In this document: one piece after another, positions 24,326-42,319 of the stretch
How the letters are laid out: every line of letters starts with the position of its first letter
How positions within the stretch are numbered: position 1 is the stretch's first letter
Origin: Gammaproteobacteria bacterium
GTDB taxonomy: Bacteria > Pseudomonadota > Gammaproteobacteria > Steroidobacterales > Woeseiaceae
DNA: 50,208 nucleotides
Assembly: GCA_003331585.1 (NCBI GenBank)
Contig: QOPG01000001.1
Span: forward strand, 1 to 50,208
Direction of reading: 5' to 3'
Position numbers and translations under genes: made by a program
Notes under the pieces: generated by a model
The model's database searches: none
What the model saw: only the letters and a program-made list of their open reading frames with translations
What the model was told of the DNA's origin: nothing

Positions 24326-24360
24326 AAGTTATTGTCCAGATATTATTCTATAGAAATCAA

Positions 24361-24385
24361 TAATATAATTATAACAATTATATTA
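24361..24385. repeat. perfect AT-only inverted repeat at the ftsA-lpxC junction
   Basis: TAATATAATT (24361-24370) and AATTATATTA (24376-24385) are exact complements around the 5-base centre ATAAC. There is no clear T tract after it on the minus strand, so a terminator is unlikely; it may be a protein-binding dyad or lie near the lpxC promoter. It sits in the 83-base spacer where ftsZ would be expected. Confidence 0.6.
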
Positions 24386-24408
24386 ATTTATACAAAGATA
24401 TAATACGA

Positions 24409-25678: not shown

Positions 25679-26428
25679 TCATTTTTTTAATAGTAGCGTA
25701 AAACCATTATCATATCTCATATCAATTGATTCTATTTCATCGGATTCACTAGAAATAATATTTTTCGCAATATCCACAAACAAATCAAATCTTTTTTTCA
25801 CATCTTTTTTCCCAAAATTTACAACTGTTCCATTATATAATTTTATTCTCCATGCACCTCTTTTGTCTAAATCCACGGCTGTAATATTTATTCCATAAGG
25901 AACTAATCTTTCTTTTAATGATAAATAGCGCTGCGCAACCTCATAGGATTTGTCATTAGGTCCATTTAATTGTGAGAGATTTGATGGTATGAGATTTTGG
26001 TTAGTTATTTCTGTAAATAACTCGCCACGATTATTTAATAGTCCATTATCACCCCACCTGGCTACAGGATGATGTTCATATATTTTTAACTCTAATCTAT
26101 CTGGCCATTTCCTTGAAATTGAAACTTTATCTATCCACTCAATATCAAGAATCTTTGAATATAACTTTGAAGTATCAAGATTTAAAATACCATTTTCAAT
26201 TTCAGTAAAAATTGCATCTTTTATCTGATTTTCTTTTACATTTTGAAAGGAACTCTCGATTGAAATGTATTTGATTTTTTGATTAAGTCCACTAAGAATG
26301 AGTGTGTATATTAACCAAAATATCACGGAGAGAAATAAAGCTTTAAACAATCTATTTTTAAAACTTTTGGATAAAATCCATTTGTTACTTTCTCTTTTTT
26401 TCCTATTTTTTGTTCTGGATGTTGACAT
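25679..26428 (-). CDS. ftsQ: cell division protein FtsQ
   Basis: Bitopic inner-membrane divisome protein that links FtsK with the FtsBL complex. The 249-residue protein has a basic cytoplasmic N-terminus (SRTKNRKKRESNKW), one transmembrane helix at about 29-47 (ALFLSVIFWLIYTLILSGL), a POTRA domain (KYISIESSFQNVKENQIKD) and a beta domain with WIDKVSISRKWPDRLELKIYE, the best-conserved part. It is located between ddlB and ftsA in the normal order, 14 bases after ddlB. Confidence 0.92.
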   Translation of the reverse strand: MSTSRTKNRKKRESNKWILSKSFKNRLFKALFLSVIFWLIYTLILSGLNQKIKYISIESSFQNVKENQIKDAIFTEIENGILNLDTSKLYSKILDIEWIDKVSISRKWPDRLELKIYEHHPVARWGDNGLLNNRGELFTEITNQNLIPSNLSQLNGPNDKSYEVAQRYLSLKERLVPYGINITAVDLDKRGAWRIKLYNGTVVNFGKKDVKKRFDLFVDIAKNIISSESDEIESIDMRYDNGFTLLLKK

Positions 26429-26442
26429 TAATCTTCAAAAAT

Positions 26443-27381
26443 TTAGAAACTAGTCTCAAGAATAGTCCAGCATAGCGTTTCAAAATTAATACCTTTACAC
26501 TGAGCAGACATTGGAACGAGACTTTTTTTTGTCATTCCCGGAACTGTATTTATTTCAAGGATTTTAGGGATACTATTTTTTTCGCACATAAAATCAACAC
26601 GCCCCCATCCACGACAATGAAGTGCTTCAAATGCTTCTAATGCAATATCTGCATAAATTTTTTCCTCAGATATATCTGAGGTTCCAGGACAAATATATTC
26701 TGTTTTATTGGATTTGTATTTAGCAAAATAATCATAAAAAGTTCTATTAGTTTTTACCCTTATAGTCGGAAGCGTTTTATTTTTTAAAATAGTTACTGTG
26801 ATTTCTTTTCCCTGAATAAACTCTTCTGCAAGCAATACATCATCAAATTCAGTCGCTGCTTTGTAAGCATCCTCTAACTCATTTAATTTGGATATTTTAC
26901 TCATTCCAAGACTGGAACCCTCTGAATTTGGTTTGAGAACAATAGGAAAACCAAATATATCTGTAGCTTTTTTCAAATCTTTTAATGTTCTTATCACTTT
27001 AAATTTTGGAGTTGGTAAATTATGCTCTAAAAATATTTTTTTACTTAGAACCTTGCTCATGGCAATTGCAGAAGAAAACATTCCACTACCAGTAAAAGGA
27101 ATATTAAGAAAATCCAGTAAACCTTGTATCCTCCCATCCTCTCCATTTGCACCATGAAGTGCAATAAATGCTCTGTCTATATCTTGATTGAGAATATATT
27201 TGATGGATTCTTGATTGGGATCCCATCCAAATGCGTCAATTCCGCTTTTTTTTAGTGAAGAAAGAACAGATTGTCCACTCTCTAGGGAAATTTCACGTTC
27301 ATTTGAATTTCCTCCATAAATAACAACAACCTTTCCAAAGTCTTCAGGATTTCTTATGTGTGAATCACTTTTATATGTCAT
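26443..27381 (-). CDS. ddlB: D-alanine--D-alanine ligase
   Basis: ATP-grasp enzyme joining two D-Ala for the peptidoglycan stem. The 312-residue protein has VVIYGGNSNEREISLESGQ at the N-terminus (with Glu for substrate binding), FIALHGANGEDGRIQGLLD, the grasp loop VLKPNSEGSSLGMSK and the metal-binding C-terminal ILEINTVPGMTKKSLVPMSA. The gene lies between murB and ftsQ with 2 and 14 base gaps, the ddlB position of the cluster. Confidence 0.96.
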   Translation of the reverse strand: MTYKSDSHIRNPEDFGKVVVIYGGNSNEREISLESGQSVLSSLKKSGIDAFGWDPNQESIKYILNQDIDRAFIALHGANGEDGRIQGLLDFLNIPFTGSGMFSSAIAMSKVLSKKIFLEHNLPTPKFKVIRTLKDLKKATDIFGFPIVLKPNSEGSSLGMSKISKLNELEDAYKAATEFDDVLLAEEFIQGKEITVTILKNKTLPTIRVKTNRTFYDYFAKYKSNKTEYICPGTSDISEEKIYADIALEAFEALHCRGWGRVDFMCEKNSIPKILEINTVPGMTKKSLVPMSAQCKGINFETLCWTILETSF

Positions 27382-27383
27382 CT

Positions 27384-28286
27384 TTATAAGTTACCAACAA
27401 TTTTTACTTCACATTCAAGTTGAATATCAAACTTCTCAATAATTTTCTTCTGAATATAATTGATTAATCGCTCAATATCTTCTGCTGAAGCTTTTTGATC
27501 ATTAATAATAAAGTTTGCATGTTTTGTTGATATATGAGCTCCTCCTATTCTAAATCCTTTGAGCCCAGAATCTTGGATGAGTTTTGCAGCAAAATTCCCT
27601 TCAGGATTTCTAAATACTGAACCACAACTTGGTTTTCCTAGTGGTTGAGAATTTTTCCTTTTGCTTAGCATCTCTTTTTGCTTTTCCAAAGAAGACGACT
27701 TATTCGGATCAAAAATCAAATTTGCGCTTATAAACCATTCATCTGGAGGACCTACTACACTCCTATAATTAATCTTATATTCTGATGGTTTTCTAGTATG
27801 ATATCCCCCTAAACGATCAACAATCTTAACTGAATCAACCCTTTCCCATGTTTCATGCCCATATGCACCTGCATTCATAGCTAGTGCACCTCCAATTGAA
27901 CCTGGTATACCTGAAAAAAACTCAGAAGGAGCCATTCCCCATCTTATACATTGCTTTGCAAGCATTGTACAAGGAACATTTGCGCCAACTTTGATTGAGT
28001 TATTATCAATTTTTTCTATTTTTTTTGAGATCAAGGATGATGAAATTACAACTCCTGAAATCCCTCCATCTCTGACAAGAATATTACTTCCTCTTCCTAA
28101 CCAAAATATGGGGATATCATTGTCGATATTTGATAAAAATAAACCTAATTCATCCAAGTCTGATGGTTGAAAATAAATCTCAGCAGGCCCCCCTACCTTG
28201 AGTGAGGTATGCTTTTTCATTGGCTCAAAAAATTTTATTTTACTTTTTAGCGGTTCTAATGAAACAGATAATTTATGTTTTTTCAT
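27384..28286 (-). CDS. murB: UDP-N-acetylenolpyruvoylglucosamine reductase MurB
   Basis: FAD enzyme that reduces UDP-GlcNAc-enolpyruvate to UDP-MurNAc. From the ATG at 28284-28286 the protein has 300 residues and starts 4 bases after the murC stop; a GTG at 28304 would overlap murC. Motifs are TSLKVGGPAEIYFQP, WLGRGSNILVRDGG and FFSGIPGSIGGALAMNAGAYG in the FAD-binding part, with the catalytic serine in PSCGSVFRNPEG. The sequence resembles the shorter type II MurB. In E. coli murB is elsewhere; here it is inside the dcw cluster, as in several other gammaproteobacteria. Confidence 0.94.
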   Translation of the reverse strand: MKKHKLSVSLEPLKSKIKFFEPMKKHTSLKVGGPAEIYFQPSDLDELGLFLSNIDNDIPIFWLGRGSNILVRDGGISGVVISSSLISKKIEKIDNNSIKVGANVPCTMLAKQCIRWGMAPSEFFSGIPGSIGGALAMNAGAYGHETWERVDSVKIVDRLGGYHTRKPSEYKINYRSVVGPPDEWFISANLIFDPNKSSSLEKQKEMLSKRKNSQPLGKPSCGSVFRNPEGNFAAKLIQDSGLKGFRIGGAHISTKHANFIINDQKASAEDIERLINYIQKKIIEKFDIQLECEVKIVGNL

Positions 28287-28290
28287 GGAT

Positions 28291-29697
28291 TTACAACGCA
28301 ACACGAATTAATTTTGGTAAATCTTTTACGAATGAGCCAATATCCCCTGCGCCCATAATTAAGAGAATATCTCCATCATTTACTATCTGGTTTATTATAT
28401 TTATTGAATCTTCAAGTGAATTTATATAAATAGGGTTAATTTTCTTTTCTTTTTTAATTGTTTTTACCAAACTCTCACCATTGAATCCTTTTATTGGTGC
28501 TTCACCTGCTGCATAGATCTTTGTCACAATTAATTGATCCGACATAGAAAGAGCATCAACAAAATCAGTAAACAGATCTTTAGTTCTTGTGTATCGATGC
28601 GGTTGAAATAGAAGTGTTATTTTTTTATCCCCCCACCCTGATCGAATTGCATTCAGTGTTGCCAGAATCTCAGTAGGATGATGACCATAATCATCGATAA
28701 GAGTCACTTTGCCATTTTTTATTGGTAGATTTTCTGTAACTTGAAATCTTCTATCAATACCAGAGAACGTTTTCAGCGCTTTTTTAATGGAAGTGTTACT
28801 GACATTTAATTCAGTCGCAACAGCAATAGCGGCTAGAGCATTATGTACATTGTGTAATCCAGGTAAATTTATCTTTATGTTTACTCTTTCTGTTTTATTT
28901 TTTCTAATTAAATCAAATGTTGTATATGTATTTTTAAATTCGATATTTTCAGCTCGAATATCAGCTTTTTCTGATATGCCATATGTAATCACCGAGCGAG
29001 CGATTCTATGTTTAATTTTTTTCACTCCTTTATCATCAATACAAATTATTGCTAATCCATAGAATGGAAGATTATGCAAAAATTCTATAAATCCAGAATT
29101 CAATTTCTCGATATTATTTTCATAAGTTGACATGTGATCTAAGTCGATATTTGTTACAACAGAAATCATTGGCTTTAAATGAGCAAAAGATGCATCGCTT
29201 TCATCTGCTTCTGCAACAAGATATTCACCTGCGCCAAGCTTTGCATGAGAATTGGAGCTTTTAAGACATCCACCTATTATATAAGTTGGATCTAAGTTGC
29301 CTTCAGCTAAAAGAGTAGCAACAAGACTTGTTGTGGTTGTTTTTCCGTGTGTACCTGATATAGCAATTGAATAATAAAAACGCATCAACTCGGCAAGCAT
29401 CTCAGCTCGGGCAACAACAGGTAACATTTTTTTCTTAGCCTCTATAACTTCACTATTTTTTTCGCTTATAGCGCTTGAAACTACTAGGGCATCTGCATTT
29501 TTTATATTTAAAGGTGAGTGTGATATATATATTTTTGCTCCAAGGGATCTTAACCTTTCTAATTGATCACTCATCTTTATATCTGAACCTTGAACTTTAT
29601 AACCAAGACCAATCATGACCTCTGCAATCCCTGACATACCAGATCCGCCAATGCCTACAAAATGTACATTTTTCAATCTTTTCATTTTTCTATTCAT
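28291..29697 (-). CDS. murC: UDP-N-acetylmuramate--L-alanine ligase MurC
   Basis: Adds L-Ala to UDP-MurNAc, the first amino-acid step. The protein is about 468 residues. VHFVGIGGSGMSGIAEVMIGLG is the N-terminal nucleotide-binding loop, AISGTHGKTTTTSLVA the ATP loop, and DDYGHHPTEI the Mur ligase C-terminal signature. The start is uncertain: ATGs at 29697 and 29685 are both plausible, with the latter lying just past the murG stop at 29690. It overlaps or abuts murG. Confidence 0.95.
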   Translation of the reverse strand: MNRKMKRLKNVHFVGIGGSGMSGIAEVMIGLGYKVQGSDIKMSDQLERLRSLGAKIYISHSPLNIKNADALVVSSAISEKNSEVIEAKKKMLPVVARAEMLAELMRFYYSIAISGTHGKTTTTSLVATLLAEGNLDPTYIIGGCLKSSNSHAKLGAGEYLVAEADESDASFAHLKPMISVVTNIDLDHMSTYENNIEKLNSGFIEFLHNLPFYGLAIICIDDKGVKKIKHRIARSVITYGISEKADIRAENIEFKNTYTTFDLIRKNKTERVNIKINLPGLHNVHNALAAIAVATELNVSNTSIKKALKTFSGIDRRFQVTENLPIKNGKVTLIDDYGHHPTEILATLNAIRSGWGDKKITLLFQPHRYTRTKDLFTDFVDALSMSDQLIVTKIYAAGEAPIKGFNGESLVKTIKKEKKINPIYINSLEDSINIINQIVNDGDILLIMGAGDIGSFVKDLPKLIRVAL

Positions 29698-30778
29698 TTT
29701 GATCCACATAATTCAAACAGGTTTCAACGATTGCATTTGTCGCCTCAGATTTGGAACTAGATCTGGCTAAGCAAGATCTCCTTTTAAGGATAGCTCTATC
29801 CTGAATCCAGTCCCTTAAAATCAAGGACAAAGCACCTTTTTCAATTTCGTTTTCACTTACAATCTCAGCCGCACCAATTTCTTTCATAAATTTTGCATTC
29901 TCAGTTTGGTGGTCATCTGTGGCCAAAGAAAAAGGTATAAAAATAGCAGGTAATCCTGCGGCTAATAGTTCACTCACAGTCATTGCTCCAGCTCTGCATA
30001 TTACGATATCAGCCCACTGATAAGCGTCGGCAATTTCATCAATAAATTCGACTAAATATAATCCAACAGGAACATTTTCATATGACTTTTGAGCTTCTTT
30101 GATAGTTTTAGATCCAGCTTGGTGGAGGACTTCTAATTTTGCAATAGATGCAATTTCTTTTATTGAATTGGGTACAGACTTGTTAAGAACAAGAGATCCC
30201 TGACTCCCCCCAAGAATCAAAATTCTTATTGGGAAATCACGCCCATCTAATCTTTCTTTTGGTTGCTCTATGGAAATGATCTCATTTCTTATTGGATTAC
30301 CAACCGTCTTTGCGTTAACTTTTTTTTCAAAACTATTGGGAAAAGCCTCCAAAACAGATGAAGCTATTTTTGATAGAAGTTTATTGGTCGTACCAGGAAT
30401 TGAGTTCTGCTCATGAATTATCAAAGGATACCTCATTAAGAATCCCGCAATACCCCCTGGTCCACTAACATAGCCTCCCATACCAAGTATTACATCTGGA
30501 CGTTGCTCTTTTAAAATAGAAAAACACTGAAACAAGGCCTTAAATAATTTTTTTAATGAGGTGATTATATTCTTCAAATTCTTTCCTCGAAGACCCGCTA
30601 CAGTTATATACTCAATTTTTATATTTGCTTTAGGAACTAATTTTTCCTCAATTCCTCCTCTTACTCCAAGCCAAACAACAGTACAACCAGAGTCTTCTAA
30701 TGCCTTGGCAATAGTAAGTCCAGGGATTACATGCCCACCAGTACCACCTGCCATTATCATCACTTTTGCTCGACTCAT
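29690..30778 (-). CDS. murG: lipid II synthase MurG
   Basis: GT28 glycosyltransferase at the inner face of the membrane that adds GlcNAc to lipid I. The 362-residue protein has the N-terminal MAGGTGGHVIPGLTIAKAL loop, GMGGYVSGPGGIAG, HEQNSIPGTTNK and the UDP-GlcNAc-binding ILILGGSQGS and CRAGAMTVSELLAAGLPAIF segments, all diagnostic. Its ATG overlaps the ftsW stop by 4 bases (ATGA). It is followed by murC in the standard order. Confidence 0.96.
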   Translation of the reverse strand: MSRAKVMIMAGGTGGHVIPGLTIAKALEDSGCTVVWLGVRGGIEEKLVPKANIKIEYITVAGLRGKNLKNIITSLKKLFKALFQCFSILKEQRPDVILGMGGYVSGPGGIAGFLMRYPLIIHEQNSIPGTTNKLLSKIASSVLEAFPNSFEKKVNAKTVGNPIRNEIISIEQPKERLDGRDFPIRILILGGSQGSLVLNKSVPNSIKEIASIAKLEVLHQAGSKTIKEAQKSYENVPVGLYLVEFIDEIADAYQWADIVICRAGAMTVSELLAAGLPAIFIPFSLATDDHQTENAKFMKEIGAAEIVSENEIEKGALSLILRDWIQDRAILKRRSCLARSSSKSEATNAIVETCLNYVDQNE

Positions 30779-31974
30779 GGGTTTCTCTTTTTAGTCTTTA
30801 TTTGTGATTTATAATTATAATTTGAATGCACTTCATGATAAATCCTCATAAGAATACTAATTGTAATCATGGTTAGAATTAAACTACTTCTACCATAACT
30901 AATAAGAGGTAACGTTAATCCTTTTGTTGGAAGAATTCCCATACTGACACCAAGATTTATTATAACCTGCAGAGCTAGCCATGTTCCTGCACCGATACAA
31001 AAATATGCCTCAAAAAAACGATCTGCTTTAGCTGATCTAATTGCTAATCGAAAAATTCTCCATACTAGTAACACAAATAATGTTATCAATACTCCAGATC
31101 CCAATAAACCAAACTCTTCGGAAAAAACAGCAAAAATAAAATCCGTATGAGCTTCTGGCAGATAAAATAGCTTCTGGATACTGTTACCCATTCCAACACC
31201 AAACCATTCACCTCTTCCAATGGCAATGAGCGATTGCGTTAATTGATATCCTGATCCAAAAACCACATCTTTATCCCACGGATCAAGGAATCCTGTAAAT
31301 CTTCTCATCGCATAGGGGAAAAATTGCATCAGAGTGGCTAGAGACAAAGAAATAGCAAGCAAAAATGAAAAGAAATCTCTAATTCTAGCTCCGGCAACTA
31401 GAAGCATCGACAATACTGTTGCCAATAAAACAGCTGTGGCACCAAAATCTGTTTCCATGAGCAATAATAATGCCGCAAAACCTAACACAAGCATCGGTCT
31501 AAGAAAACCAACAAAACCCTCTCTTAATTGTTTATTTCTCCTAACAAGATACCCAGCAACATAAATCATAATACATAATCTGGCTGGATCAGATACTTGA
31601 ACATTAAGTATTCCTCCAAACTTGATCCATCGAGTTGATCCATTCACCTCATTACCTATTCCTGGTATCAAAACTAAAATTAATAAAGTAATACCAAAGA
31701 TTAAAAGCAATGGCCCAATATTCTTCCAATAATCAATAGGTACAAAAAAACAGAATAAGCCCGAAAAAAACCCTAAAACAACCGCAAAAATTTGCCTATT
31801 AAGATAAAAAAATGGAGAACCTGAAATACTCTCAGATATCGAGCTTGAAGCTGAAGAGAGGGCTATTAAGCCAATCATCAACAACATTAATACTATTGTT
31901 AAAAAAGTGAAATCGAAGCTTACAGGTTTTTGGATTGTTTCTTTTATATTTTGAAAATAATGATATATATTCAT
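30775..31974 (-). CDS. ftsW: SEDS peptidoglycan polymerase FtsW
   Basis: Division-specific glycosyltransferase that works with FtsI to build septal peptidoglycan. The 399-residue polytopic protein has about ten hydrophobic segments. GSTRWIKFGGILNVQVSDPARLC and the GVGMGNSIQKLFYLPEAHTDFIF region are SEDS signatures, and the C-terminal ISYGRSSLILTM is the conserved end motif (usually SYGGSS; the second Gly is Arg here). It overlaps both murD and murG by four bases (ATGA at each). Confidence 0.95.
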   Translation of the reverse strand: MNIYHYFQNIKETIQKPVSFDFTFLTIVLMLLMIGLIALSSASSSISESISGSPFFYLNRQIFAVVLGFFSGLFCFFVPIDYWKNIGPLLLIFGITLLILVLIPGIGNEVNGSTRWIKFGGILNVQVSDPARLCIMIYVAGYLVRRNKQLREGFVGFLRPMLVLGFAALLLLMETDFGATAVLLATVLSMLLVAGARIRDFFSFLLAISLSLATLMQFFPYAMRRFTGFLDPWDKDVVFGSGYQLTQSLIAIGRGEWFGVGMGNSIQKLFYLPEAHTDFIFAVFSEEFGLLGSGVLITLFVLLVWRIFRLAIRSAKADRFFEAYFCIGAGTWLALQVIINLGVSMGILPTKGLTLPLISYGRSSLILTMITISILMRIYHEVHSNYNYKSQIKTKKRNP

Positions 31975-33314
31975 TTTGTTATTTCACCAACTATTCTCTC
32001 AAATTCCTTGCCACGGTGAATGAAACTGTCAAACTGATCAAAACTAGCGCAAGCAGGTGATAGTAGGATTACGTCACCTGGTGAGCTTGATTTTTTTGCT
32101 AAGATAACTGCATCTTCAAGATTATCAACAAAAACCACTGGTACAAACTTATTAAGCTCATTACCAATAATCTTAGCATCCTCTCCGAATAAATATGCTC
32201 TTTTGACCTTATTCTTTATAGCTTCAGCAAATTGCTCAAAATTACCACCTTTTGATTGACCTCCAGCTAATAATATTACTTTCTTTTTAAGAGAGCTAAT
32301 TGATGCAATGGCGGCATCTACATTGGTTCCTTTTGAGTCATTTATATATTCAATTGAATTATGATTACTTATTGATTGCATCCGATGGGGTAAGCCCTGA
32401 AAACTGCATATTGCATCAAGAGCATCAGATAAATCTATCCCGATTAATCGAGATGCTGCAAGTGCTGCCAATATATTTTCATAGTTGTGGTTTCCATTAA
32501 GCTTTAATTTATTGCAATTTATTAATTTCTCTTTGCCATAACAAAGATAAAATGAATTATTTTCTTCTAAAATACCAAAACTTTTTTCCTTAACCTCTGC
32601 ACCAAAACCTACATTAATATTTGAATTTAAATATTTACCAATATCATTGATACCATGATTATAGACTGATGAATTAGCATCTCTAAGAATGCGAAATTTA
32701 CATTTCTTATAGTGATCTTCATTCCTATGCCAGTCCAAGTGATCCCTTGAAATATTTAAAAGCACTGCAACTTTGGATGGAAGATAGTCACATCTATGCA
32801 GATGAAAACTAGATAGCTCGAGTATATGAAGTTCAGCATCATCTGACAAAAGGTCAAGAGCTGGTATACCAAGGTTACCTCCAGCTGATGCTTTTATTTT
32901 AGATTTATTACAGATATAACTGATTAGCTCCGTAACAGTACTTTTCCCATTGGTGCCCGTGACGGTAACAAAATCTCTAGAAGAGCTCTCCACATATAAA
33001 TCAATATCAGAGATAATTTTTATATTTTTCTTTAACCCCAGTTTAAGAAGTTTATTTTGATCACTGATACCCGGAGATACCACAATAGCAGTTACATTTT
33101 CTAGAATACTCTCTTCGTAATCAGCTAAGAATATGTTTTCTTTTCCAAAAAGCTCTTCGAACAATTCTTTTTCAGGTGGTTCGCTTCTTGAATCATAATA
33201 GATAGCATCTATATTTTCTTTAAAGAGATGACGAGCAATAGATAATCCTGTCTTCCCTAAACCAAATACTAAATATTTGGAATTGATTTCATCGCTTATG
33301 TCCAAGGATACCAC
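31971..33314 (-). CDS. murD: UDP-N-acetylmuramoylalanine--D-glutamate ligase MurD
   Basis: Adds D-Glu to UDP-MurNAc-L-Ala. The 447-residue protein has VFGLGKTGLSIARHL at the N-terminus, the ATP loop VTVTGTNGKSTVTELI, HLDWH, and the C-terminal YINDSKGTNVDAAIASI and SPACASFDQFDSFIHRGKEF, the last being a strong MurD signature. The start is GTG at 33314-33312, 5 bases after mraY. The stop overlaps the ftsW start. Confidence 0.95.
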   Translation of the reverse strand: MVSLDISDEINSKYLVFGLGKTGLSIARHLFKENIDAIYYDSRSEPPEKELFEELFGKENIFLADYEESILENVTAIVVSPGISDQNKLLKLGLKKNIKIISDIDLYVESSSRDFVTVTGTNGKSTVTELISYICNKSKIKASAGGNLGIPALDLLSDDAELHILELSSFHLHRCDYLPSKVAVLLNISRDHLDWHRNEDHYKKCKFRILRDANSSVYNHGINDIGKYLNSNINVGFGAEVKEKSFGILEENNSFYLCYGKEKLINCNKLKLNGNHNYENILAALAASRLIGIDLSDALDAICSFQGLPHRMQSISNHNSIEYINDSKGTNVDAAIASISSLKKKVILLAGGQSKGGNFEQFAEAIKNKVKRAYLFGEDAKIIGNELNKFVPVVFVDNLEDAVILAKKSSSPGDVILLSPACASFDQFDSFIHRGKEFERIVGEITK

Positions 33315-33319
33315 TTAAT

Positions 33320-34402
33320 TTATCTGATTTTGAGACTAGCCAGGCCGATTAACACCAATACCACAGTTACAATCCAAAAACGAACTATAATTTTTGGTTC
33401 TTTCCAACCTTTTAGCTCATAGTGATGATGAAGAGGCGCCATTCTAAAAATTCTCTTACCGGTGAGTTTAAATGATATTACTTGAATCATGACCGACAAT
33501 GTTTCGACAACAAATACTCCGCCCATAATTGCAAGAACAATTTCTTGCTTAATAATAACAGCTACCACCCCAAGAGCTGCTCCCAATGAAAGTGATCCGA
33601 CATCCCCCATAAATACTTGTGCTGGATAAGTATTGAACCAAAGAAAACCCAAACCAGCGCCGGCTATGGAGGCACAAAATACAAAAATTTCACCGGCTCC
33701 CTCGACATATGGTATTTCTAGATAGGAGGAAAAATTAATATTTCCGGTAACGTATGCAAATATACCAAGAGCTCCGCCAACAAGAACGGTTGGCATAATT
33801 GCTAAGCCATCCAATCCGTCTGTTAAGTTAACTGCATTACTAAAACCAATAATAAAAAAGAATGAAATCACTAGATGTAATATACCTATCTCTATGAATG
33901 TATTTTTAAGATAAGGAATAAGCAATGATGTAGCATGAATATCTGTATTGGATTTATAAATCCAAATTACAGCAACTAAGGCTATTACTGATTGCCAAAA
34001 TATTTTTGTTTTTGCTGAGATTCCAGCAGAATTATTTTTGATAATTTTCCGATAATCATCAATATAACCAAGTATGCCAAAACTTACGGTTACAAATAAA
34101 ATTACCCAAATAAAATAATTTGACAGCTCAGCCCAGAGAAGAGTGCTTAATGAAACTGACATTAAAATTAAAGCACCTCCCATGGTGGGAGTACCAACTT
34201 TACTTTTGTGAGTTTCCGGACCGTCATCTCTTACTGGCTGATTGAGTTGAATAGCATGAAATTTAGCTATCATTTTCGGTCCGAGCACAAGAGAAACTAT
34301 CAAAGCTGTTAACGCGCCGAGGATCGCCCTAATTGTTATATAATTGAAAACAAAAAAACCAGAATCAAATTTTGCTAGATATTCAGTTAGATATAGCAAC
34401 AT
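33320..34402 (-). CDS. mraY: phospho-N-acetylmuramoyl-pentapeptide transferase MraY
   Basis: Integral membrane enzyme that transfers phospho-MurNAc-pentapeptide to undecaprenyl phosphate, making lipid I. The 360-residue protein has about ten transmembrane segments. Signatures are [15 protein letters not shown], the aspartates in GYIDDYRK and [30 protein letters not shown], and the cytoplasmic [12 protein letters not shown] loop. It starts 15 bases after murF ends. Confidence 0.97.
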
Positions 34403-34417
34403 TGCTTTAGTCCTTTT

Positions 34418-35764
34418 TTATTTTATAATTTCTTGTATCACTCTTTCCATTCTCATAGATCGAGATCCCTTTACTAATATAGTCATATCATTTCCCTCAA
34501 GCATTAACTCTTTCAAATCCTTTATCAATAAATTTATATCTTCATACCATAATCCGTGATTATCAAATTGATTAACAGTGTATTTAGCCATCCCACCAAA
34601 TCCAAAAAGATAATCAATGTCAGCTTCGTTTAATTTTTCTCCAATCATATTATGCATTTGTTCCTTATTTATGCCCAATTCCAGCATATCGCCAAAAACA
34701 AATACCTTGGTATTACTGTTTACTTTTAAGTAATCAATTGCGGCTAGGGTACTTTTTGGATTTGCATTATATGTGTCATTAATTATTTCATGACCTGATG
34801 CCAATGAAATGAATTCAAGGCGACCAGTGACAGGAGTTACAGACTCTAATCCTTTTTTAATCTCTGATATATCTTTTGATAAAGAATACATTACCGCTGA
34901 AGCAGCGCATGCATTTATAATATTATGCATACCTGGCAAATTTAGATTTATAGTTTCTGAACCATGAGGGCAATTTAAGTCAAAAGAACAATGATTCTTT
35001 TCCAGAACAATATTTTTTGGATAAACCATTGCCTTTGAGTCACTTCCAAATGAGATAATTTCGGATTGCTTGCCCATATTACTCCATAAATCAAAATAAT
35101 TATCATCGCGATTTAAAATTGCAAAATTTGGACTCTTACTTCCCTGTAATATCTCTCCTTTGGCTCTGGCTACTCCATCAATATTTATAAATCCATCTAG
35201 ATGAGCTAACGCCGCATTATTTATTACAACAATATCTGGGCTTGCAATTTCAACAAGATGTTCAATCTCATGTTCTTTATTTGCACCCATTTCGAGAACA
35301 GCAAATTCATAAGAATTATTTATTTCTAAGATCATCAGTGGCAATCCAATATCATTGTTAAAATTACCTTTAGTACTAAATGTTTTATGATTGATTGATA
35401 AACAATTACCCAGGATCTCTTTTAATGTTGTTTTACCATTACTTCCTGTGACAGCAATAATCTGAGAAGAAAGCTTATGTTTCCATAATCTAGCCAATTC
35501 CCCCAGAGCTGACTTTGCATTTGAAACTAGAATTTTCTGTTTATTACTAATATCAGGATTATCAATAATTGCTGCGGAAGCACCCTTATTTAGTGCTTCA
35601 CTAGCATAATCATTTCCATCAAAGTTAGGACCTTTAACGGCAAAAAATAATTCATCTTTTTTAATACTTCTTGTATCAATAGATACGCCTTTAATTATTT
35701 GATCAGATCCATTGAACTCTCCATTCAAAGATTTAGCTATTTCTGTCAATTTCATGCTAATCAT
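34418..35764 (-). CDS. murF: UDP-N-acetylmuramoyl-tripeptide--D-alanyl-D-alanine ligase MurF
   Basis: Adds D-Ala-D-Ala, completing the pentapeptide. The 448-residue protein starts MISMKLTEIAKSLNGEF, closely like the E. coli MurF N-terminus, so the ATG at 35764 (overlapping the murE end by 8 bases) is preferred over the one at 35755. The ATP loop is AVTGSNGKTTLKEIL. Further motifs are FNNDIGLPLMILE and the C-terminal INDTYNANPKSTLAAI and VFGDMLELG. Confidence 0.95.
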   Translation of the reverse strand: MISMKLTEIAKSLNGEFNGSDQIIKGVSIDTRSIKKDELFFAVKGPNFDGNDYASEALNKGASAAIIDNPDISNKQKILVSNAKSALGELARLWKHKLSSQIIAVTGSNGKTTLKEILGNCLSINHKTFSTKGNFNNDIGLPLMILEINNSYEFAVLEMGANKEHEIEHLVEIASPDIVVINNAALAHLDGFINIDGVARAKGEILQGSKSPNFAILNRDDNYFDLWSNMGKQSEIISFGSDSKAMVYPKNIVLEKNHCSFDLNCPHGSETINLNLPGMHNIINACAASAVMYSLSKDISEIKKGLESVTPVTGRLEFISLASGHEIINDTYNANPKSTLAAIDYLKVNSNTKVFVFGDMLELGINKEQMHNMIGEKLNEADIDYLFGFGGMAKYTVNQFDNHGLWYEDINLLIKDLKELMLEGNDMTILVKGSRSMRMERVIQEIIK

Positions 35765-37259
35765 TTTGAATATTATCCAGTTTTTTCTTCAGCGCTTCTG
35801 ATGATATATCTTGATCTGAAAATTCTATCGTTTTATTTTTAGTAATTTGGAAGTTTTCATGCCCTTTACCAGCAATTAAAATTATATCTTTCTCGTCAGC
35901 TGACATTACCGCATACTCAATTGCTTCTGATCTATTTTTAATGGTTCGAACGTCTGTGCTAATCCCTTCTAGTATGTTCAAAATAATAGTATCAGGATCT
36001 TCATTCCTTGGGTTATCACTTGTAACCACAATATAATCAGCATTTTCTTCAGCTATTTTTCCCATTAGTTTTCTTTTTCCTCTATCGCGATTTCCTCCGC
36101 AACCAAAAACACACCATATTTTTCTATTATGAAAATGATCACGAATTGCATTAATTGCTAAATTTAATGAACTTGGTGTATGAGAAAAATCAACAATCAC
36201 TTTTGGAAGATCATAATTTTTATTTAATTGTATTAATTGCATTCTTCCTGGTGGTGGATTGCATTTTTTGATTGCATCAGATACCTCATTAAGAGAAAAA
36301 TTATAACTGAGCAGTAAAGCAGTTGCTTGAATTGAATTCTCGATATTAAATTCACCAATGAATGGTAAAAAAATTTCTTTATTACCCCATGAACTATTTA
36401 TTCTGATTGTATAGCCAAACTCCTCTAACTTTTTTTCTTCTAGTGAGATAAATTTTTCATAATTTGAAGATTCTATATTTTTTATGGATGAAGCAATAAC
36501 ATCCTCTTTTATCTGATTACTTAAAGATTTTCCAAATGAATCACTTATATTAATTATTTTGACTTTTGATTTAATTTTTGTGAACAGTCTCGCCTTGATT
36601 GCACCGTATTCTTCCATTGAATTATGGTAATCGATATGATCTCTGGAAAGATTGGTAAAGATTACAGAATCAAATTCAATACCAGCAATTCTATTTTGCT
36701 CAATTGCATGAGATGAAACCTCAATGGCAGAATATTTTGCTCCAGATTTAGATAGATTGAATAATATTTTATGCAAACTTATGCAAGATGGTGTTGTAAG
36801 TGATATCTTTTTTAAACTTTCTATACCGTAGCCTAATGTTCCAACATAGCCGCATGTGTATCCCATATTATTCAGACAACTCTTGATAAGCCATGCAACT
36901 GTTGTTTTTCCATTTGTTCCAGTTATCCCAACTATATTCATGGACTTTGAAGGGTAATCATAATGTCTATTTGCAATTTCGCCTAAAAGGCATCGCAAAT
37001 TATCAACTGGTATAATTGGAATCCTATTTTCTGAGTAAGCTAGCTCATATGGTGGTTCATAGATGATAGCTGCAGCATTTGAATCAATTACCGAATCTAT
37101 GAAATCACATCCATGAGACTCGATGCCTTTAAGAGCAAAAAAAACATCCCCTTTATTCACTAACCTACTGTCATCACAGATATCATTAAAAGCAATAGGA
37201 GGTGCATCGATTATCCCCGATAAAAGGTCTTTTAAATTTAATTTATGTTGATTGCTCAT
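35757..37259 (-). CDS. murE: UDP-N-acetylmuramoyl-tripeptide synthetase MurE
   Basis: Adds the third stem residue, meso-diaminopimelate in Gram-negatives. From the ATG at 37257-37259 (MSNQHKLNLKDLL) the protein is 500 residues and begins 13 bases past the ftsI stop; the longer frame would overlap ftsI. Motifs are VGITGTNGKTTVAWLI, TTPSCISLH and HIDYHNSMEEY. DNPRNEDP is the meso-DAP-selecting signature DNPR, so meso-DAP is the likely substrate. Confidence 0.95.
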   Translation of the reverse strand: MSNQHKLNLKDLLSGIIDAPPIAFNDICDDSRLVNKGDVFFALKGIESHGCDFIDSVIDSNAAAIIYEPPYELAYSENRIPIIPVDNLRCLLGEIANRHYDYPSKSMNIVGITGTNGKTTVAWLIKSCLNNMGYTCGYVGTLGYGIESLKKISLTTPSCISLHKILFNLSKSGAKYSAIEVSSHAIEQNRIAGIEFDSVIFTNLSRDHIDYHNSMEEYGAIKARLFTKIKSKVKIINISDSFGKSLSNQIKEDVIASSIKNIESSNYEKFISLEEKKLEEFGYTIRINSSWGNKEIFLPFIGEFNIENSIQATALLLSYNFSLNEVSDAIKKCNPPPGRMQLIQLNKNYDLPKVIVDFSHTPSSLNLAINAIRDHFHNRKIWCVFGCGGNRDRGKRKLMGKIAEENADYIVVTSDNPRNEDPDTIILNILEGISTDVRTIKNRSEAIEYAVMSADEKDIILIAGKGHENFQITKNKTIEFSDQDISSEALKKKLDNIQND

Positions 37260-37272
37260 ACTCTTGAATCGA

Positions 37273-39015
37273 TCAGTTACTCGACTCTGCCAGCAAAACT
37301 GATTCAATTACATTCTCGTTTGGAGGTATAGCTAATAATTGAAGTGATTCTGAAATAATTTCAGAAAAAACTGGTGCTGCAACATCACCTCCATAGTAAA
37401 ACTCTCCTGTTGGTTCATCTATGAGAACTACTGCAACAAGTCTGGGGTTTTCTATTGGAGCAACGCCGGCAAATATTGCTCTGTATCTATCATTGCTGTA
37501 TCCGCCAGTGCCAGAAATCTTCCAAACGGTACCTGATTTTCCACCTACTCTATAACCTTCAACTTTAGCTTTTTTTGATGTTCCATCAACTACTACTTTC
37601 TCTAACATCTTGAGAATTTTTGATGCTGTTTCCTCTTTGATTATTCTTTTGCCTTCATTTTGATTGTTTTTTCTTAAAGATAGTGGTTTGTTAACCCCTT
37701 TGTTTGCTATTGCAGCATATGCCTGAGCTAACTGAATTGGGGTTACACTTATCCCATAACCATAAGACATAGTAGCTTTTCCAATTTCCCCCCATTCTGA
37801 ATGATGATGAAGTTGACCTCTTGACTCACCAGGAAATCCGTCTGTGGCATATGAACCAAACCCAAAATCACTCATCAAACCCCAGAGTTTATCTGACTCT
37901 AGGCTTAGAGCAATTCTACTCATTCCTGCATTTGATGATCGCATTAAAACAGTGGGAAGATCCACAAAACCTAGATCGCTAGCGTCACTTATATTTCTTG
38001 AGCCTATTCTGACAGGAGAAGTATCTATAATACTAGAGTTATCATAATCACCAGTTTCAATCGCTCTTGCAATTATAAATGGCTTTATACTTGAGCCGGG
38101 CTCATACATATCAATAATGGCTCGATTCCTCATTAAGGCCGGAATCATCGAGCGTCTTTTGTTATTGTCATAAGTAGGATGATTTGCAATTGCCAAGATT
38201 TCGCTATTTAAAACATCAACAAGAATTGCGCTTCCCGATATTGCTTGATTCTTGATAACTGCTGATTCAAGTGCTTTGTATGCAATATGTTGAAGTCTCA
38301 GATCTATACTTAAGGTTAAATCCATGCCAGCTTGTGGAGATTTTATAATTTCTATATTTTCTATCTGCCTCTTGTACCGATCTCTCAAAACAGTCTTCTT
38401 ACCACTTACCCCCTTTAATGAACCATCGTATTGACGCTCAATACCCTCTAAACCTTTTTGACGCTCAATACCCTCTAAACCTTTTTCATCTGATGTCAAA
38501 CCCAGTAATTGAGAGACAATCTTACCGGCCGGATATGAACGTTTGTAATTTCTCTCTAGTTCTAAATTAGGTATCTCTAGAATCTTGATCTTATTAGAAA
38601 TACTCGTCTCAACATTTTTTTTTATATAAAGAAAAGTTTTATTCCCATTTAAAGCATTTTGAATTGATTTTCTTAACTCATTAGGATCTTTTTCTATAAG
38701 AATGGCTAATTCATTGAACTCTTCAGTATTTTTATCAAATTTTTTAGGATAAATCTTTATATGATCCACTGGTATGCTTATTGCCAGAGTTTTATTATTC
38801 CTGTCTGTTATAGTCCCTCGGTAAGCGGCAATATCAACTGTCTTAAGTTGTCTTAGATTTCCTTGATGAATTAGAAAATCTTTGTTTAGCACTTGGAGAT
38901 AACTGGATCTTAATATCAAAATAATCGAGAAAAATACAAAAAAACCAAATATCCAGAATGACCTCACAATAAATCTTTTTGAGATATCTTCTCTAGTTTC
39001 TGCCCCTCTTCTCAT
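37273..39015 (-). CDS. ftsI: septal peptidoglycan transpeptidase FtsI (PBP3)
   Basis: Class B penicillin-binding protein that cross-links septal peptidoglycan with FtsW. The 580-residue protein has a short basic cytoplasmic tail, one transmembrane helix at about 18-38 (FWIFGFFVFFSIILILR), a pedestal domain, and a transpeptidase domain with the three active-site motifs: SSIK in YEPGSSIKPF, SSN in MRSSNAGMS and KSGT in VGGKSGTVWK. Residues about 178-195 contain KGLEGIERQ twice in a row from an exact 27-base duplication. The start overlaps the ftsL stop by one base (TAATG). Confidence 0.96.
   Translation of the reverse strand: MRRGAETREDISKRFIVRSFWIFGFFVFFSIILILRSSYLQVLNKDFLIHQGNLRQLKTVDIAAYRGTITDRNNKTLAISIPVDHIKIYPKKFDKNTEEFNELAILIEKDPNELRKSIQNALNGNKTFLYIKKNVETSISNKIKILEIPNLELERNYKRSYPAGKIVSQLLGLTSDEKGLEGIERQKGLEGIERQYDGSLKGVSGKKTVLRDRYKRQIENIEIIKSPQAGMDLTLSIDLRLQHIAYKALESAVIKNQAISGSAILVDVLNSEILAIANHPTYDNNKRRSMIPALMRNRAIIDMYEPGSSIKPFIIARAIETGDYDNSSIIDTSPVRIGSRNISDASDLGFVDLPTVLMRSSNAGMSRIALSLESDKLWGLMSDFGFGSYATDGFPGESRGQLHHHSEWGEIGKATMSYGYGISVTPIQLAQAYAAIANKGVNKPLSLRKNNQNEGKRIIKEETASKILKMLEKVVVDGTSKKAKVEGYRVGGKSGTVWKISGTGGYSNDRYRAIFAGVAPIENPRLVAVVLIDEPTGEFYYGGDVAAPVFSEIISESLQLLAIPPNENVIESVLLAESSN
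38431..38484 (-). repeat. exact 27-base tandem duplication inside ftsI
   Basis: The 27-base unit starting TTGACGCTCAATACCC on the plus strand occurs at 38431-38457 and again, unchanged, at 38458-38484. It encodes KGLEGIERQ twice in frame. Other FtsI proteins have a single such segment (of the type GxGIEGVE) ahead of the RKDRYGR region, so one copy is extra. Confidence 0.95.
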
Positions 39016-39278
39016 TATTTTTTATATATTCTCATTTCATCTACAGCTGGTTTTTTCAATTCAAGAGCTTCTATTGCTTGTTGCTCAATTCTAGCTGGAT
39101 TACCTAATCGAATTTCTTCTGATTTGAGTTCGTTCCATTCAATATTTAATTGATCTCTATGTTTTTTATGTGCCTCGAGTTCAATAAAAAGTTCTCGTGA
39201 TTCATGCTTGATGAAAATCAAGCCTATCGCTGAACTCCCACAAATCAAAATAATCAAAAACAACTTAAATGAACTCAT
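39015..39278 (-). CDS. ftsL: cell division protein FtsL
   Basis: Small bitopic divisome protein that forms a coiled coil with FtsB and activates FtsWI. The 87-residue protein has one transmembrane helix at residues about 5-23 (LFLIILICGSSAIGLIFI) and a heptad-rich periplasmic part (ELFIELEAHKKHRDQLNIEWNELKSEE). It ends with ARIEQQAIEALEL, which matches the FtsL end. It is coupled to ftsI by TAATG. It normally follows rsmH directly; here ftsZ is between, with an 84-base spacer. Confidence 0.88.
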   Translation of the reverse strand: MSSFKLFLIILICGSSAIGLIFIKHESRELFIELEAHKKHRDQLNIEWNELKSEEIRLGNPARIEQQAIEALELKKPAVDEMRIYKK

Positions 39279-39362
39279 TTTTAAATATCGCCCTGATTTG
39301 GAATATCTGAGAAACTCCCATTTTTATGGAAAACAGTTTTTTAACTTTAAATGACTATTCTC

Positions 39363-40508
39363 TTAATCAGCTTGCCTTCTGAGAAAGGCAGGAACATTTA
39401 ACAAATCTTCAGAAGAGTCGTCATCTTCAATGTCATCTCCTACTGCCTTGTTTCTTTGTGTTATAGGTTTACTTAAAGTGTCATAATCGGGTGCTTCATT
39501 AGATTTATCATCATTTTTCTTAATTATTCTCATTGGAGATGATTGAGAAACATTTTTACCCAAACCCGTTGCGACGACAGTGACTCTCACCTCATCTTGC
39601 ATTGATTGGTCAAGTGCAGATCCAATAATTACAGTGGCATCTGATGCTGCAAACTCTTTTATTGTGTCACCAATTTCTGAAAATTCTCCAATTGTTAGAT
39701 TGAGATCAGAAGTAACATTTACGAGAATACCATTAGCCCCTGAGAGATTAACATCTTCCAATAGAGGGCTTGAAATTGCAGCTTCAGCTGCTTCTCTTGC
39801 TCTTCCTTCACCAGATGATACTCCGGAACCCATCATTGCCATCCCCATTTCAGACATGACTGTTCTGACATCAGCAAAATCTACATTCATCGTACCAGGA
39901 GTTGTTATCAACTCGGCTATACCTTGAACTGCACCCTGAAGTACTTCATTTGCAGATTGAAATGCATCAATTAATGTTGTATCTGAACCGAGAACAGCAA
40001 GAAGTTTCTCATTCGGAATGGTTATTAAAGAGTCAACATATTTTCCAAGTTCAGCTATCCCATGATCAGCAATTGTCATTCGTTTGGATCCTTCCAACTC
40101 AAAAGGTTTAGTAACGACGGCAACTGTTAAAATTCCGAGTTCTTTGGCAACTTGAGCAACTACAGGAGCTGCTCCTGTTCCTGTTCCTCCTCCCATTCCA
40201 GCAGTAATAAATAACATGTCAGCACCTTCAATTACCTCAACAATTCTATCTCGATCTTCCATTGCAGCCTGTCGACCAATATCAGGATCAGCGCCAGCTC
40301 CTAGACCTTTTGTTATATTGCAGCCTATTTGAAGCGCCGTTTTAACTCTTGCAGTATTGAGTGCCTGTGCATCAGTATTGGCACAAACAAAATCAACGCC
40401 CTCAATACCAGTATTAACCATATGTGAGACAGCATTTCCTCCGCCGCCTCCAACTCCAATTACCTTTATGACCGCGCTTTGACTATGTGCATCCATTAAT
40501 TCAAACAT
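39363..40508 (-). CDS. ftsZ: cell division GTPase FtsZ (at an unusual position)
   Basis: Tubulin-like GTPase that forms the Z ring. The 381-residue protein has the nucleotide-binding start [17 protein letters not shown], the tubulin signature [13 protein letters not shown], and the T7 loop [12 protein letters not shown] linker rich in charged residues leads to the conserved C-terminal peptide [13 protein letters not shown] that binds FtsA, ZipA and ZapD. A GGAGG site at 40516-40520 is 7 bases before the ATG. It lies 33 bases after rsmH and 84 before ftsL, not between ftsA and lpxC as in nearly all relatives. The gene looks complete and functional. Confidence 0.98.
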
Positions 40509-40541
40509 CGATAATCCTCCGTTTATTTGTTCATTTAATAA

Positions 40542-41483
40542 TTAAATTCTTTCAGCTATTCTTAATACAGCACTTCTACTTCTTACGTTATCTTGTATCT
40601 CATCTACTGACGCTTTAATTGCCTTACCAATTTTTTTTAATTTTGGTTTAAACTCATCTGGTACATCAGGCATCCCTCTGTATTGTTCAGACTCATTCGA
40701 AAAATTTCTAATAAATCTTTTTACAATTCGATCTTCGAGTGAATGAAAACTTATCACACAGAGTCTTCCACCTTTTTTTAGTATCTCAAGACTCGAATCA
40801 AGAGCATTCTCAAGTTGTTTTAACTCATCATTAATAAAGATACGAATTGCTTGAAATGTTTTAGTTGCTGGGTGTTTTTTTTGATGAGTATTTGGATAAA
40901 CTTTTTTTACTATCTCAGCAAGTTCTAATGTGGTTAAAATTGGCTTTTCGGCCCTAGATTTGATTATCGATCTCGCAATCCTTGACGAAAATCGCTCTTC
41001 TCCATATTTAAATAATACTTCTCTTAGTTTCTTTTCACTGACTCTTGCCAACCAATCTGCAGCACTTAATCCATTTATGGGGTCCATTCTCATATCTAGC
41101 GGACCATCTTTCTGAAAACTAAATCCTCGAGAAGCGCAATCCAATTGGGGTGACGAAACACCTAAATCAAGAAGAATTCCGTGAATTTTTGACGAATCGT
41201 AATTTTTTTGTGAAACTAATTTTATATTTTTCATCTCATCTTTATCTAGATTGAAGCGAATATCCCCATCAAATATTTTTTTTGAATCACTAATTGCCTC
41301 GGGATCTCTATCAATTGCGACAAGTCTCCCTTTCTCTCCTAGTCTTTCAAGAATTTCTCTACTGTGACCTCCTCTGCCGAATGTCCCATCGATATAGAGA
41401 CCATCTTTTTTTACATCTAGTGCATCAATTGCCTCTTTAAGTAATACGGGCATATGACCATTTATGTTTTTTTTGTCTATCAA
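40542..41483 (-). CDS. rsmH: 16S rRNA m4C1402 methyltransferase RsmH (MraW)
   Basis: Methylates N4 of C1402 in 16S rRNA, using S-adenosylmethionine. The 313-residue protein starts with TTG at 41483-41481 (MIDKKNINGHMPVLLKEAID), needed to include the conserved His before PVLL; the next ATG would cut it. SAM-site motifs are YIDGTFGRGGHSREIL and LLDLGVSSPQLD, and later segments are FSFQKDGPLDMRMD, ATKTFQAIRIFINDEL and VISFHSLEDRIVKRF. It follows mraZ by 5 bases. Confidence 0.95.
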   Translation of the reverse strand: MIDKKNINGHMPVLLKEAIDALDVKKDGLYIDGTFGRGGHSREILERLGEKGRLVAIDRDPEAISDSKKIFDGDIRFNLDKDEMKNIKLVSQKNYDSSKIHGILLDLGVSSPQLDCASRGFSFQKDGPLDMRMDPINGLSAADWLARVSEKKLREVLFKYGEERFSSRIARSIIKSRAEKPILTTLELAEIVKKVYPNTHQKKHPATKTFQAIRIFINDELKQLENALDSSLEILKKGGRLCVISFHSLEDRIVKRFIRNFSNESEQYRGMPDVPDEFKPKLKKIGKAIKASVDEIQDNVRSRSAVLRIAERI

Positions 41484-41488
41484 AATAA

Positions 41489-41938
41489 TTACAACGAGAG
41501 AGTATCGAGCTCTCCCGACAGCCCGATTTCATCTTCCATGTTAAGCCAAGAATCACGTTTATCGCTCCATGATTTGTCATTCCATAGTTCAAACTTTTTT
41601 CCTTGACCGAGTAAAATTGCTTGGCGATCAAGATTTGCAAATTCTCTTAACTCTTTAGATATTAGAATTCTCCCATTGCCATCTAATTCCATCTCGGTAG
41701 CATATCCCACCATAAGTCTTTGAAGACGTCTCGCTTGTTTATTCATTGTAGGTAATCGTATTAATTTTCTTTCAATTTCCTCCCAGTCAGGATAAGGATA
41801 AATTAATAGACAGTAATCCCGATCAACAGTTACTACTACCTCCCCATTGGAACGCGAGAGAATTCGATCTCGATACCTTGTGGGAATAGCGAGCCTCCCT
41901 TTTGCGTCTAAAGTTACTTTTGTTGCTCCACGAAACAT
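41489..41938 (-). CDS. mraZ: transcriptional regulator MraZ
   Basis: AbrB/SpoVT-like DNA-binding protein that represses its own operon by binding short repeats near the promoter. The 149-residue protein has two related halves, MFRGATKVTLDAKGRLAIPTR and ATEMELDGNGRILISKELRE, each with the DxxGR motif. I chose the second of two adjacent ATGs (41936-41938), which gives the standard MFRGA start. It is the first gene of the dcw cluster, and its operator and promoter are visible upstream. Confidence 0.95.
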   Translation of the reverse strand: MFRGATKVTLDAKGRLAIPTRYRDRILSRSNGEVVVTVDRDYCLLIYPYPDWEEIERKLIRLPTMNKQARRLQRLMVGYATEMELDGNGRILISKELREFANLDRQAILLGQGKKFELWNDKSWSDKRDSWLNMEDEIGLSGELDTLSL

Positions 41939-41978
41939 CATTTTCTTTTATTATTTGTTGGTATAGTTGCATCTATTA

Positions 41979-42002
41979 ACCAATAAAACCCACATTTATC
42001 CA
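41979..42002 (-). promoter_or_regulatory. MraZ operator (three TGG repeats at 10-base spacing)
   Basis: On the minus strand the sequence reads TGGATAAATG, TGGGTTTTAT, TGGT, so three TGG-N boxes start exactly 10 bases apart. This matches the known MraZ box, three TGGG-type repeats with 5-6 base spacers found just downstream of the mraZ promoter in E. coli. It lies 10 bases downstream of the predicted -10 and 40 bases upstream of the mraZ start. Confidence 0.75.
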
Positions 42003-42011: not shown

Positions 42012-42040
42012 ACTATATTGATGCCTATAATTAGCGTCAA
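42012..42040 (-). promoter_or_regulatory. sigma70-type promoter of mraZ and the dcw cluster
   Basis: On the minus strand TTGACG (42040-42035) and TATAGT (42017-42012) are separated by exactly 17 bases. Both hexamers are 5 of 6 or better to consensus. Transcription would start near 42005, leaving a leader of about 65 bases that begins at the MraZ boxes. It is the clearest promoter in the window and probably drives mraZ, rsmH and ftsZ at least. Confidence 0.8.
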
Positions 42041-42319
42041 CAATAAAAAAAGTATATTTCCTTTAAGCTCAGTAACTTAGGATGATTTTACGAAAAATAA
42101 AATCGAATATTTAGATAGATTTGAAACTAAAAATCAATCACTTAAAGATTATATCTAAAGCATAATATTTAATTGATTTTGTTGAAAAAAAATATTTTTT
42201 ATAAAATACACTGGAGAATAGTTTTTTCAGTTTTTCGCGCTAAAATAGTAAATAATTTATTAAAAATATTCAATAAAGTATTGATAAATATGTTTTTATT
42301 TATAAAGATCAATTATAAA
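42041..42319. other. AT-rich spacer between rnpB and the mraZ promoter
   Basis: This stretch has no open frame of note and is extremely rich in A and T, with several runs of T and A. It should contain the end of rnpB transcription: just past the RNA, TTTATAA and TTATAAA (minus strand, about 42299-42319) could form a weak AT stem, but a convincing terminator is not visible. I see no RNA gene or repeat array in it. Confidence 0.5.

Follow-up and report, generated by a model that had tools for sequence, protein, structure and literature searches.

In the canonical gammaproteobacterial dcw cluster (mraZ...ftsQ-ftsA-ftsZ-lpxC) ftsZ directly follows ftsA, with repeats at the mraZ promoter and with lpxC and secA at the end. 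A different arrangement is described for the reduced genome of Mycoplasma genitalium, where wall genes have been lost, the order is mraZ-mraW-MG_223-ftsZ and ftsZ, lying close behind mraZ, rises in an mraZ mutant, so that MraZ controls it by repression (PMC8475190). MraZ has the opposite action in Neisseria elongata, where as an activator it alters the first five dcw genes behind mraZ (PMC9395523), and ftsZ of E. coli has many promoters, a strain with the gene under a foreign promoter being viable (PMC5061873), all as given in the available portions of these three papers.

The stretch analysed here (the window: 50,208 nucleotides of contig QOPG01000001.1, assembly GCA_003331585.1, from a gammaproteobacterium of the Woeseiaceae) resembles the canonical cluster in its genes, strand and order, and also in the promoter repeats and the lpxC and secA end, except that ftsZ is third and away from ftsA, and ftsA leads to lpxC. 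It resembles the M. genitalium locus in coming from a reduced genome and in having ftsZ near mraZ and rsmH, but differs from it in that ftsZ itself has moved, whereas wall-gene loss of the Mycoplasma type is not seen, with murE, murF, mraY, murD, murG, murC, murB and ddl all present in the window cluster; MraZ control, reported for M. genitalium, is for the window a prediction from the sequence. The window dcw is a variant of a known cluster, and its interest lies in its recurrence and in an RNA element. Megrian et al. 2022, reportedly a study of dcw evolution, may include such moves of ftsZ, and the novelty of the move is therefore not established. No published report of it appears in the titles or abstract beginnings among the matches listed, nor is one described in the available parts of PMC8871954, PMC9438474, PMC8475190, PMC4498754, PMC5061873 and PMC9395523.

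The relocated ftsZ and its neighbours

The cluster consists of the following features, with coordinates being those of the window.

42012..42040, minus strand: promoter TTGACG-17-TATAGT upstream of mraZ, best site of the promoter scan (10 of 12)
41980..42002, minus strand: three TGG repeats of 10-nt period, MraZ-box-like, right after the mraZ promoter
41489..41941, minus strand: mraZ, transcriptional regulator of the cluster (TIGR00242, 152.8 bits, above cut-off)
40542..41483, minus strand: rsmH (mraW) (TIGR00006, 378.1 bits, above cut-off)
40509..40541, minus strand: 33-bp spacer between rsmH and ftsZ, carrying the Shine-Dalgarno CGGAGGA (energy -9.5)
39363..40508, minus strand: ftsZ in its new place, third in the cluster
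39279..39362, minus strand: ftsZ-ftsL spacer, 84 bp
39015..39278, minus strand: ftsL, 87 aa (TIGR02209, 65.2 bits, above cut-off)
37273..39015, minus strand: ftsI (expected family, score under the FtsI model cut-off)
25679..37307, minus strand: murE, murF, mraY, murD, ftsW, murG, murC, murB, ddl and ftsQ, in the usual order
24409..25647, minus strand: ftsA, here the final division gene in the cluster (TIGR01174, 520.7 bits, above cut-off)
24326..24408, minus strand: vacated ftsA-lpxC site, 83 bp, with a conserved TATAAT
23417..24325, minus strand: lpxC (TIGR00325, 392.9 bits, above cut-off)

The 381 aa product of ftsZ scored 423.8 bits against the NCBIfam ftsZ equivalog TIGR00065 (cut-off 295.2) and keeps both GGGTGTG, the GTP-binding loop of FtsZ, and the C-terminal tail that is conserved in the protein. 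On the curated cut-off and these motifs the product of 39363-40508 is confidently assigned as FtsZ, and the earlier sequence-only reading of an intact gene with its key motifs and tail holds. That reading had also placed ftsZ third from the mraZ promoter, between rsmH and ftsL and missing at the ftsA-lpxC junction, in a cluster otherwise of ancestral order, all of which was borne out: the coordinates are exact and the neighbours identified by profile, the gene set from mraZ to lpxC is contiguous on one strand with every gene but ftsZ in its usual place, and ftsA runs directly to lpxC, ftsZ lying behind rsmH. The ftsQ product matched its expected NCBIfam family with a score under that model's cut-off. 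No ftsZ remnant was seen at the old ftsA-lpxC site in eight spacers, the window's own included. The TATAAT of this site occurs in 7 of 8 genomes of the window genus (TATACT in G003), and on the minus strand the promoter scan listed no site wholly within it and no promoter-like site in the ftsZ-ftsL spacer.

Elsewhere in the window, zapD (PF07072, 221 bits; 19104-19901, plus strand) lies near the lpxC-secA end, its product being described as an FtsZ-binding protein in the available part of PMC4498754, and a YfiO/BamD-like lipoprotein (PF13525, 195 bits) is encoded at 12406-13557 (plus strand), carrying at its C terminus an array of nearly identical repeats of the SQDTFIGAQERLN type.

Distribution and origin of the arrangement in the window genus

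Comparison of the mraZ-rsmH-ftsZ-ftsL order among relatives showed it to be fixed across the readable window genus, the rsmH-ftsZ and ftsZ-ftsL junctions being read in 8 of 9 genomes (the window and G002-G008); the ninth, G001, is a draft without rsmH and ftsZ in which ftsA ends at a contig end. In the 8/8 genomes readable there (G001 being cut) ftsA meets lpxC with no ftsZ between them. The sequence-only reading had allowed for failed junctions, a second ftsZ or a normal ftsA-ftsZ-lpxC copy; at assembly level the junctions hold in eight genomes and neither kind of extra copy was found. The window's own genome (81% complete) has one tubulin/FtsZ match, and no second ftsZ gene was found in the genomes of the genus, including G003 (99% complete) and G007 (93%). 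Two FtsZ matches in G003 come from a single gene split between two contig ends, its contigs breaking inside ftsZ and its junctions being read from two contigs, and a second copy was rejected, one FtsZ gene having been found in each of the eight readable genomes of the genus. The old ftsA-lpxC site has closed up. An assembly artefact might be suspected from the incomplete draft behind the window and from the broken contigs of G003, but it is a wholly improbable explanation of the ftsZ position, as the congeners repeat the identical gene order (8 genomes) together with the closed site (8/8 readable), and misassembly was set aside on these grounds.

Outside the genus ftsA lies directly before ftsZ in 32 of 33 loci, the exception being G048 of family f13; a further 46 loci comprise 35 canonical ones, 7 of f13 and 4 contig edges, and among 80 others, some of which repeat genomes already counted in other locus sets, 76 have ftsA before ftsZ, 2 belong to the window genus and 2 are edges. 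The other genera of the Woeseiaceae retain ftsA-ftsZ-lpxC. In a 46-row tree built from nine cluster proteins the window genus was nested in the family beside g3, then g2, then g6 (SH-aLRT 91, 99 and 99), its stem measuring 0.45 changes per site and the tree program flagging unlike amino-acid composition in these rows; an FtsZ-only tree agreed in placing it inside the family (SH-aLRT 91). Because the genus nests among ftsA-ftsZ-lpxC genera in these trees, the native ftsZ moved within the genome, on the stem branch of the genus. Acquisition of ftsZ from another lineage, with loss of the native copy, would also give a position unlike that in relatives, but it is very improbable, since the FtsZ proteins of the genus group within the family in their own tree, as do the other cluster proteins, and both trees disfavour a horizontal origin.

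In six relatives from five other genera, rsmH and ftsL are separated by <=20 nt by aligned start, the start codon overlapping the rsmH stop; the insertion of ftsZ thus came between two closely packed genes. The upstream limit of the transferred piece probably lay just ~15 bases before the ftsZ start codon, since CGGAGGA just upstream of the ATG is common to the window, three congeners, g2 and g3. GC of the stretches read is ~35% in the window genus compared to 56-64% in four relatives, and assembly sizes are 1.1-2.0 Mb compared to 2.4-5.4 Mb in the same-family genomes compared; genus g10 provides four further genomes of 1.4-2.0 Mb.

Recurrence in other lineages with small genomes

Family f13, of the same order, has mraZ-ftsZ-rsmH in 9/9 genomes with an FtsZ match (11 genomes in total), the ftsZ frame being in two pieces in G105. 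It is like the window in its small genomes, in having ftsZ at the mraZ end and in having ftsA followed by lpxC (3/3 genomes read at the far end), but unlike it in that ftsZ precedes rsmH, the triple TGG is absent and the part of the dcw cluster that was read showed no murC, murD, murE or murF (L066 of G048, L235 of G101 and L242 of G256). G256 has 6 Mur-ligase matches, three of them together on another contig, and the other f13 genomes searched have 2 or 3, compared to 5-6 in the window genus. The FtsZ tree places f13 poorly; the f13 move is taken to be a separate event because its insertion point differs and the relatives between are canonical.

Sampling a single genome from each family across the class gave 114 genomes, 106 of them with FtsZ, from which 103 loci were used after the window genome, G045 (same order) and G258 (fragments) had been set aside; ftsA precedes ftsZ in 95, ftsZ is at the mraZ end in 4, and 4 are edges, masked or other. 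G305 (1.9 Mb, one contig) has mraZ-rsmH-ftsZ-ftsL-ftsI-murE exactly as in the window, G343 (1.9 Mb) has ftsZ-mraZ-rsmH and G291 (1.1 Mb) has mraZ-rsmH-ftsL-ftsI-ftsZ-murE, ftsA being followed by lpxC in all three, while G285 (0.9 Mb) has ftsZ-rsmH and a gene after ftsA that was not recognised. Unlike in the window, ftsA of G305 is far from ftsZ on the contig (197,744 and 1,534,226 of 1,932,455), and because its cluster is also broken the ftsZ move there may have another cause. In G324 (1.7 Mb; L284 and L350) neither ftsZ nor ftsA has recognisable dcw genes beside it, the cluster being scattered.

Among the class genomes ftsZ had moved in 4 of 22 readable ones of <=2.0 Mb compared to 0 of 77 larger ones (Fisher P 0.002), the 2.0 Mb line having been drawn after the data were seen, with sizes rounded and 8 genomes without an FtsZ match uncounted. 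The old order is kept in 18 small class genomes and in three 1.4-1.5 Mb genomes of the window's family and, as most small genomes keep it, genome reduction permits or favours the ftsZ move without demanding it. That such moves recur in other reduced genomes suggests an arrangement repeatedly reached and not a single accident, and suggests that shrinking genomes can repeatedly rewire the production of the division-ring protein.

Control of ftsZ in the genus and in its relatives

The mraZ promoter is preserved as TTGACGCT...TATAGT in 8/8 genomes of the window genus, and the triple TGG at 10-nt period was found in 8/8 genomes of the genus (~0 expected in shuffles) and in 6/6 relatives. We take TGG-type repeats of this period at an mraZ promoter to fit the MraZ-box consensus, and those before the window mraZ fit putative MraZ boxes. 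Only 5 bp separate mraZ from rsmH and 33 bp rsmH from ftsZ, and the Shine-Dalgarno energy of ftsZ is the strongest among 18 genes scored (the next being -6.1). The scan gave no promoter-like site between mraZ and ftsZ stronger than the mraZ promoter; other such sites in the region reach 9 of 12, with 9 sites in total compared to 14.2 in shuffles. A terminator-like hairpin where the mraZ gene ends (41517-41495) was dropped, as no conserved fold was seen in congeners. The earlier claims that ftsZ had come under MraZ control and that FtsZ was separated from FtsA are thus consistent with the promoter, repeats, gaps and gene order, while the control itself and its consequence for expression are predictions.

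RNase P RNA (RF00010, 325 bits) is encoded at 42319-42682 of the window (minus strand), directly upstream of mraZ on the same strand, and an Rfam scan of window 20000-44000 gave nothing else up to E 1. A strong hairpin, TTATTGAGCAGCA...TGCTGCTCAATAA, without a T run, directly follows ftsZ in the ftsZ-ftsL spacer of the congener loci L033 and L034 (also L031); it was not seen as such in the window and may be a processing site or attenuator.

In Woeseiaceae relatives the ftsZ leader often carries GAGUGAG (in a hairpin loop in some) and a AGCGGAGG Shine-Dalgarno, and the ftsZ 3'UTR has a hairpin with a ACUCACUC loop, then CCUCCGCU and then often a GC-rich hairpin (ftsZ leader and ftsZ-lpxC spacer of L038-L056, L131-L140, L148, L149 and L154-L160). 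The leader Shine-Dalgarno and GAGUGAG loop are complementary to CCUCCGC and the hairpin loop of the 3'UTR. The Shine-Dalgarno region matched its own 3'UTR over at least 7 bases in 25 of 31 relatives' loci (4.0 expected, these loci being interrelated so that expected counts are a guide only, and the 31-locus tests of perfect-match length, Shine-Dalgarno region and loop hairpin having been chosen after the motifs were seen), in 1 of 7 loci of the window genus (1.1 expected) and in 17 of 99 loci of other families (7.4 expected), the last somewhat above chance. Excluded from the 31 were L050 and L053, which extend too little on the 3' side, L153 and L155, which come from the genomes of L047 and L052, L161, in which the leader is cut, and L159 and L162, which showed no motif and could not be assigned to a family; L154, L156, L157 and L160 were included on FtsZ identity (75-77%) and gene order. 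The longest perfect match between leader and 3'UTR averaged 8.55 for own, 7.76 for swapped and 6.58 for shuffled pairs, and paired changes on both sides were seen (GAGTGAGC in L043, GAGTGAAT in L056, GGTGAGTGC in L148, GTGAGTAGC in L160 and TCAGTGAGT in L140). Of the 20 loci with CUCAC, 15 have it in a hairpin loop closed by at least 6 pairs (4.65 expected; 20 different stems), and it is missing within 150 nt in 11/31 loci. Whole-duplex energy separated weakly (family means: own -35.4, swapped -34.3, shuffled -32.3 kcal/mol), and few loci beat all 100 shuffles when leader and 3'UTR were scored as a single duplex; of the comparisons made, only those of perfect-match length, Shine-Dalgarno region and loop hairpin stood out. 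No Rfam family matched the element in 7 loci scanned. This complementarity marks a candidate autoregulatory RNA element of ftsZ, which is absent from the window genus and present in relatives among which the genus nests. A review of 3'-end sRNAs treats OppZ and CarZ as autoregulators and DicF as a repressor of ftsZ and, in its available part, does not describe an ftsZ 3'UTR RNA (PMC9438474).

Two other gammaproteobacterial loci, L173 and L175, show matches of 12 and 9 bases between the ftsZ Shine-Dalgarno region and the 3'UTR of the same gene, possibly a similar element, and c-di-GMP-I (or -GGC) riboswitches lie <=6 kb from ftsZ in 5 of 7 relatives scanned (L038, L040, L041, L045 and L051, with two in L051).

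We lean, with some caution, towards the reading that through the relocation FtsZ is now produced early on the mraZ-promoted message, in an excess over FtsA that would depend on how near the gene is to the promoter and how strongly its translation initiates. FtsZ would then be the third cistron of a message probably regulated by MraZ and would be translated from a very strong ribosome-binding site, with FtsA made last, and position would replace dedicated distal control of ftsZ, such as internal promoters of the E. coli kind or the relatives' 3'UTR element pairing with the Shine-Dalgarno. Counting against this, the sign of MraZ action differs between N. elongata and M. genitalium, f13 lacks the triple TGG (0/7, a pair only) and the order is unchanged in 18 of the 22 readable small genomes of the class. 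It is possible, though we think it less than probable, that selection on gene order is weak in reduced genomes and that ftsZ simply drifts, a move being survivable only where this essential gene lands within the same co-transcribed cluster, so that a non-adaptive process looks directed. The variety of landing sites among lineages (before mraZ, after mraZ, after rsmH, after ftsI), the isolation of both ftsZ and ftsA in G324 and the unmoved ftsZ of most small genomes would suit such drift, but in all 6 lineages whose moved ftsZ lies in or beside the cluster it is at the mraZ end, and in none in the middle or the distal part beyond murE, and in the window it has the strongest Shine-Dalgarno of the genes scored. 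An ftsZ promoter of its own inside rsmH, without MraZ control and with the new neighbours incidental, is unlikely; two weak promoter-like sites are found there (41248-41219 and 41214-41185), but they score 9 of 12 like others nearby, in a scan whose total falls below that of shuffles.

A wider proposal, which we regard as tentative and rather doubtful, is that reduced gammaproteobacteria have repeatedly and convergently swapped dedicated distal control of ftsZ, by promoter or RNA (for the Woeseiaceae, the 3'UTR element pairing with the Shine-Dalgarno and with a leader loop), for positional control at the mraZ head; if true, selection guards FtsZ dosage and not FtsA-FtsZ adjacency. The study of the ftsZ move also led to the candidate RNA element, which could autoregulate FtsZ in relatives. 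The ftsA-ftsZ pair is a textbook case of selection maintaining gene order, and lineages that have broken it likewise more than once are natural experiments on why the order exists, candidate reasons being co-translation, a fixed FtsZ:FtsA ratio and shared regulation; the reading towards which we lean predicts that FtsZ would respond to MraZ in these bacteria.
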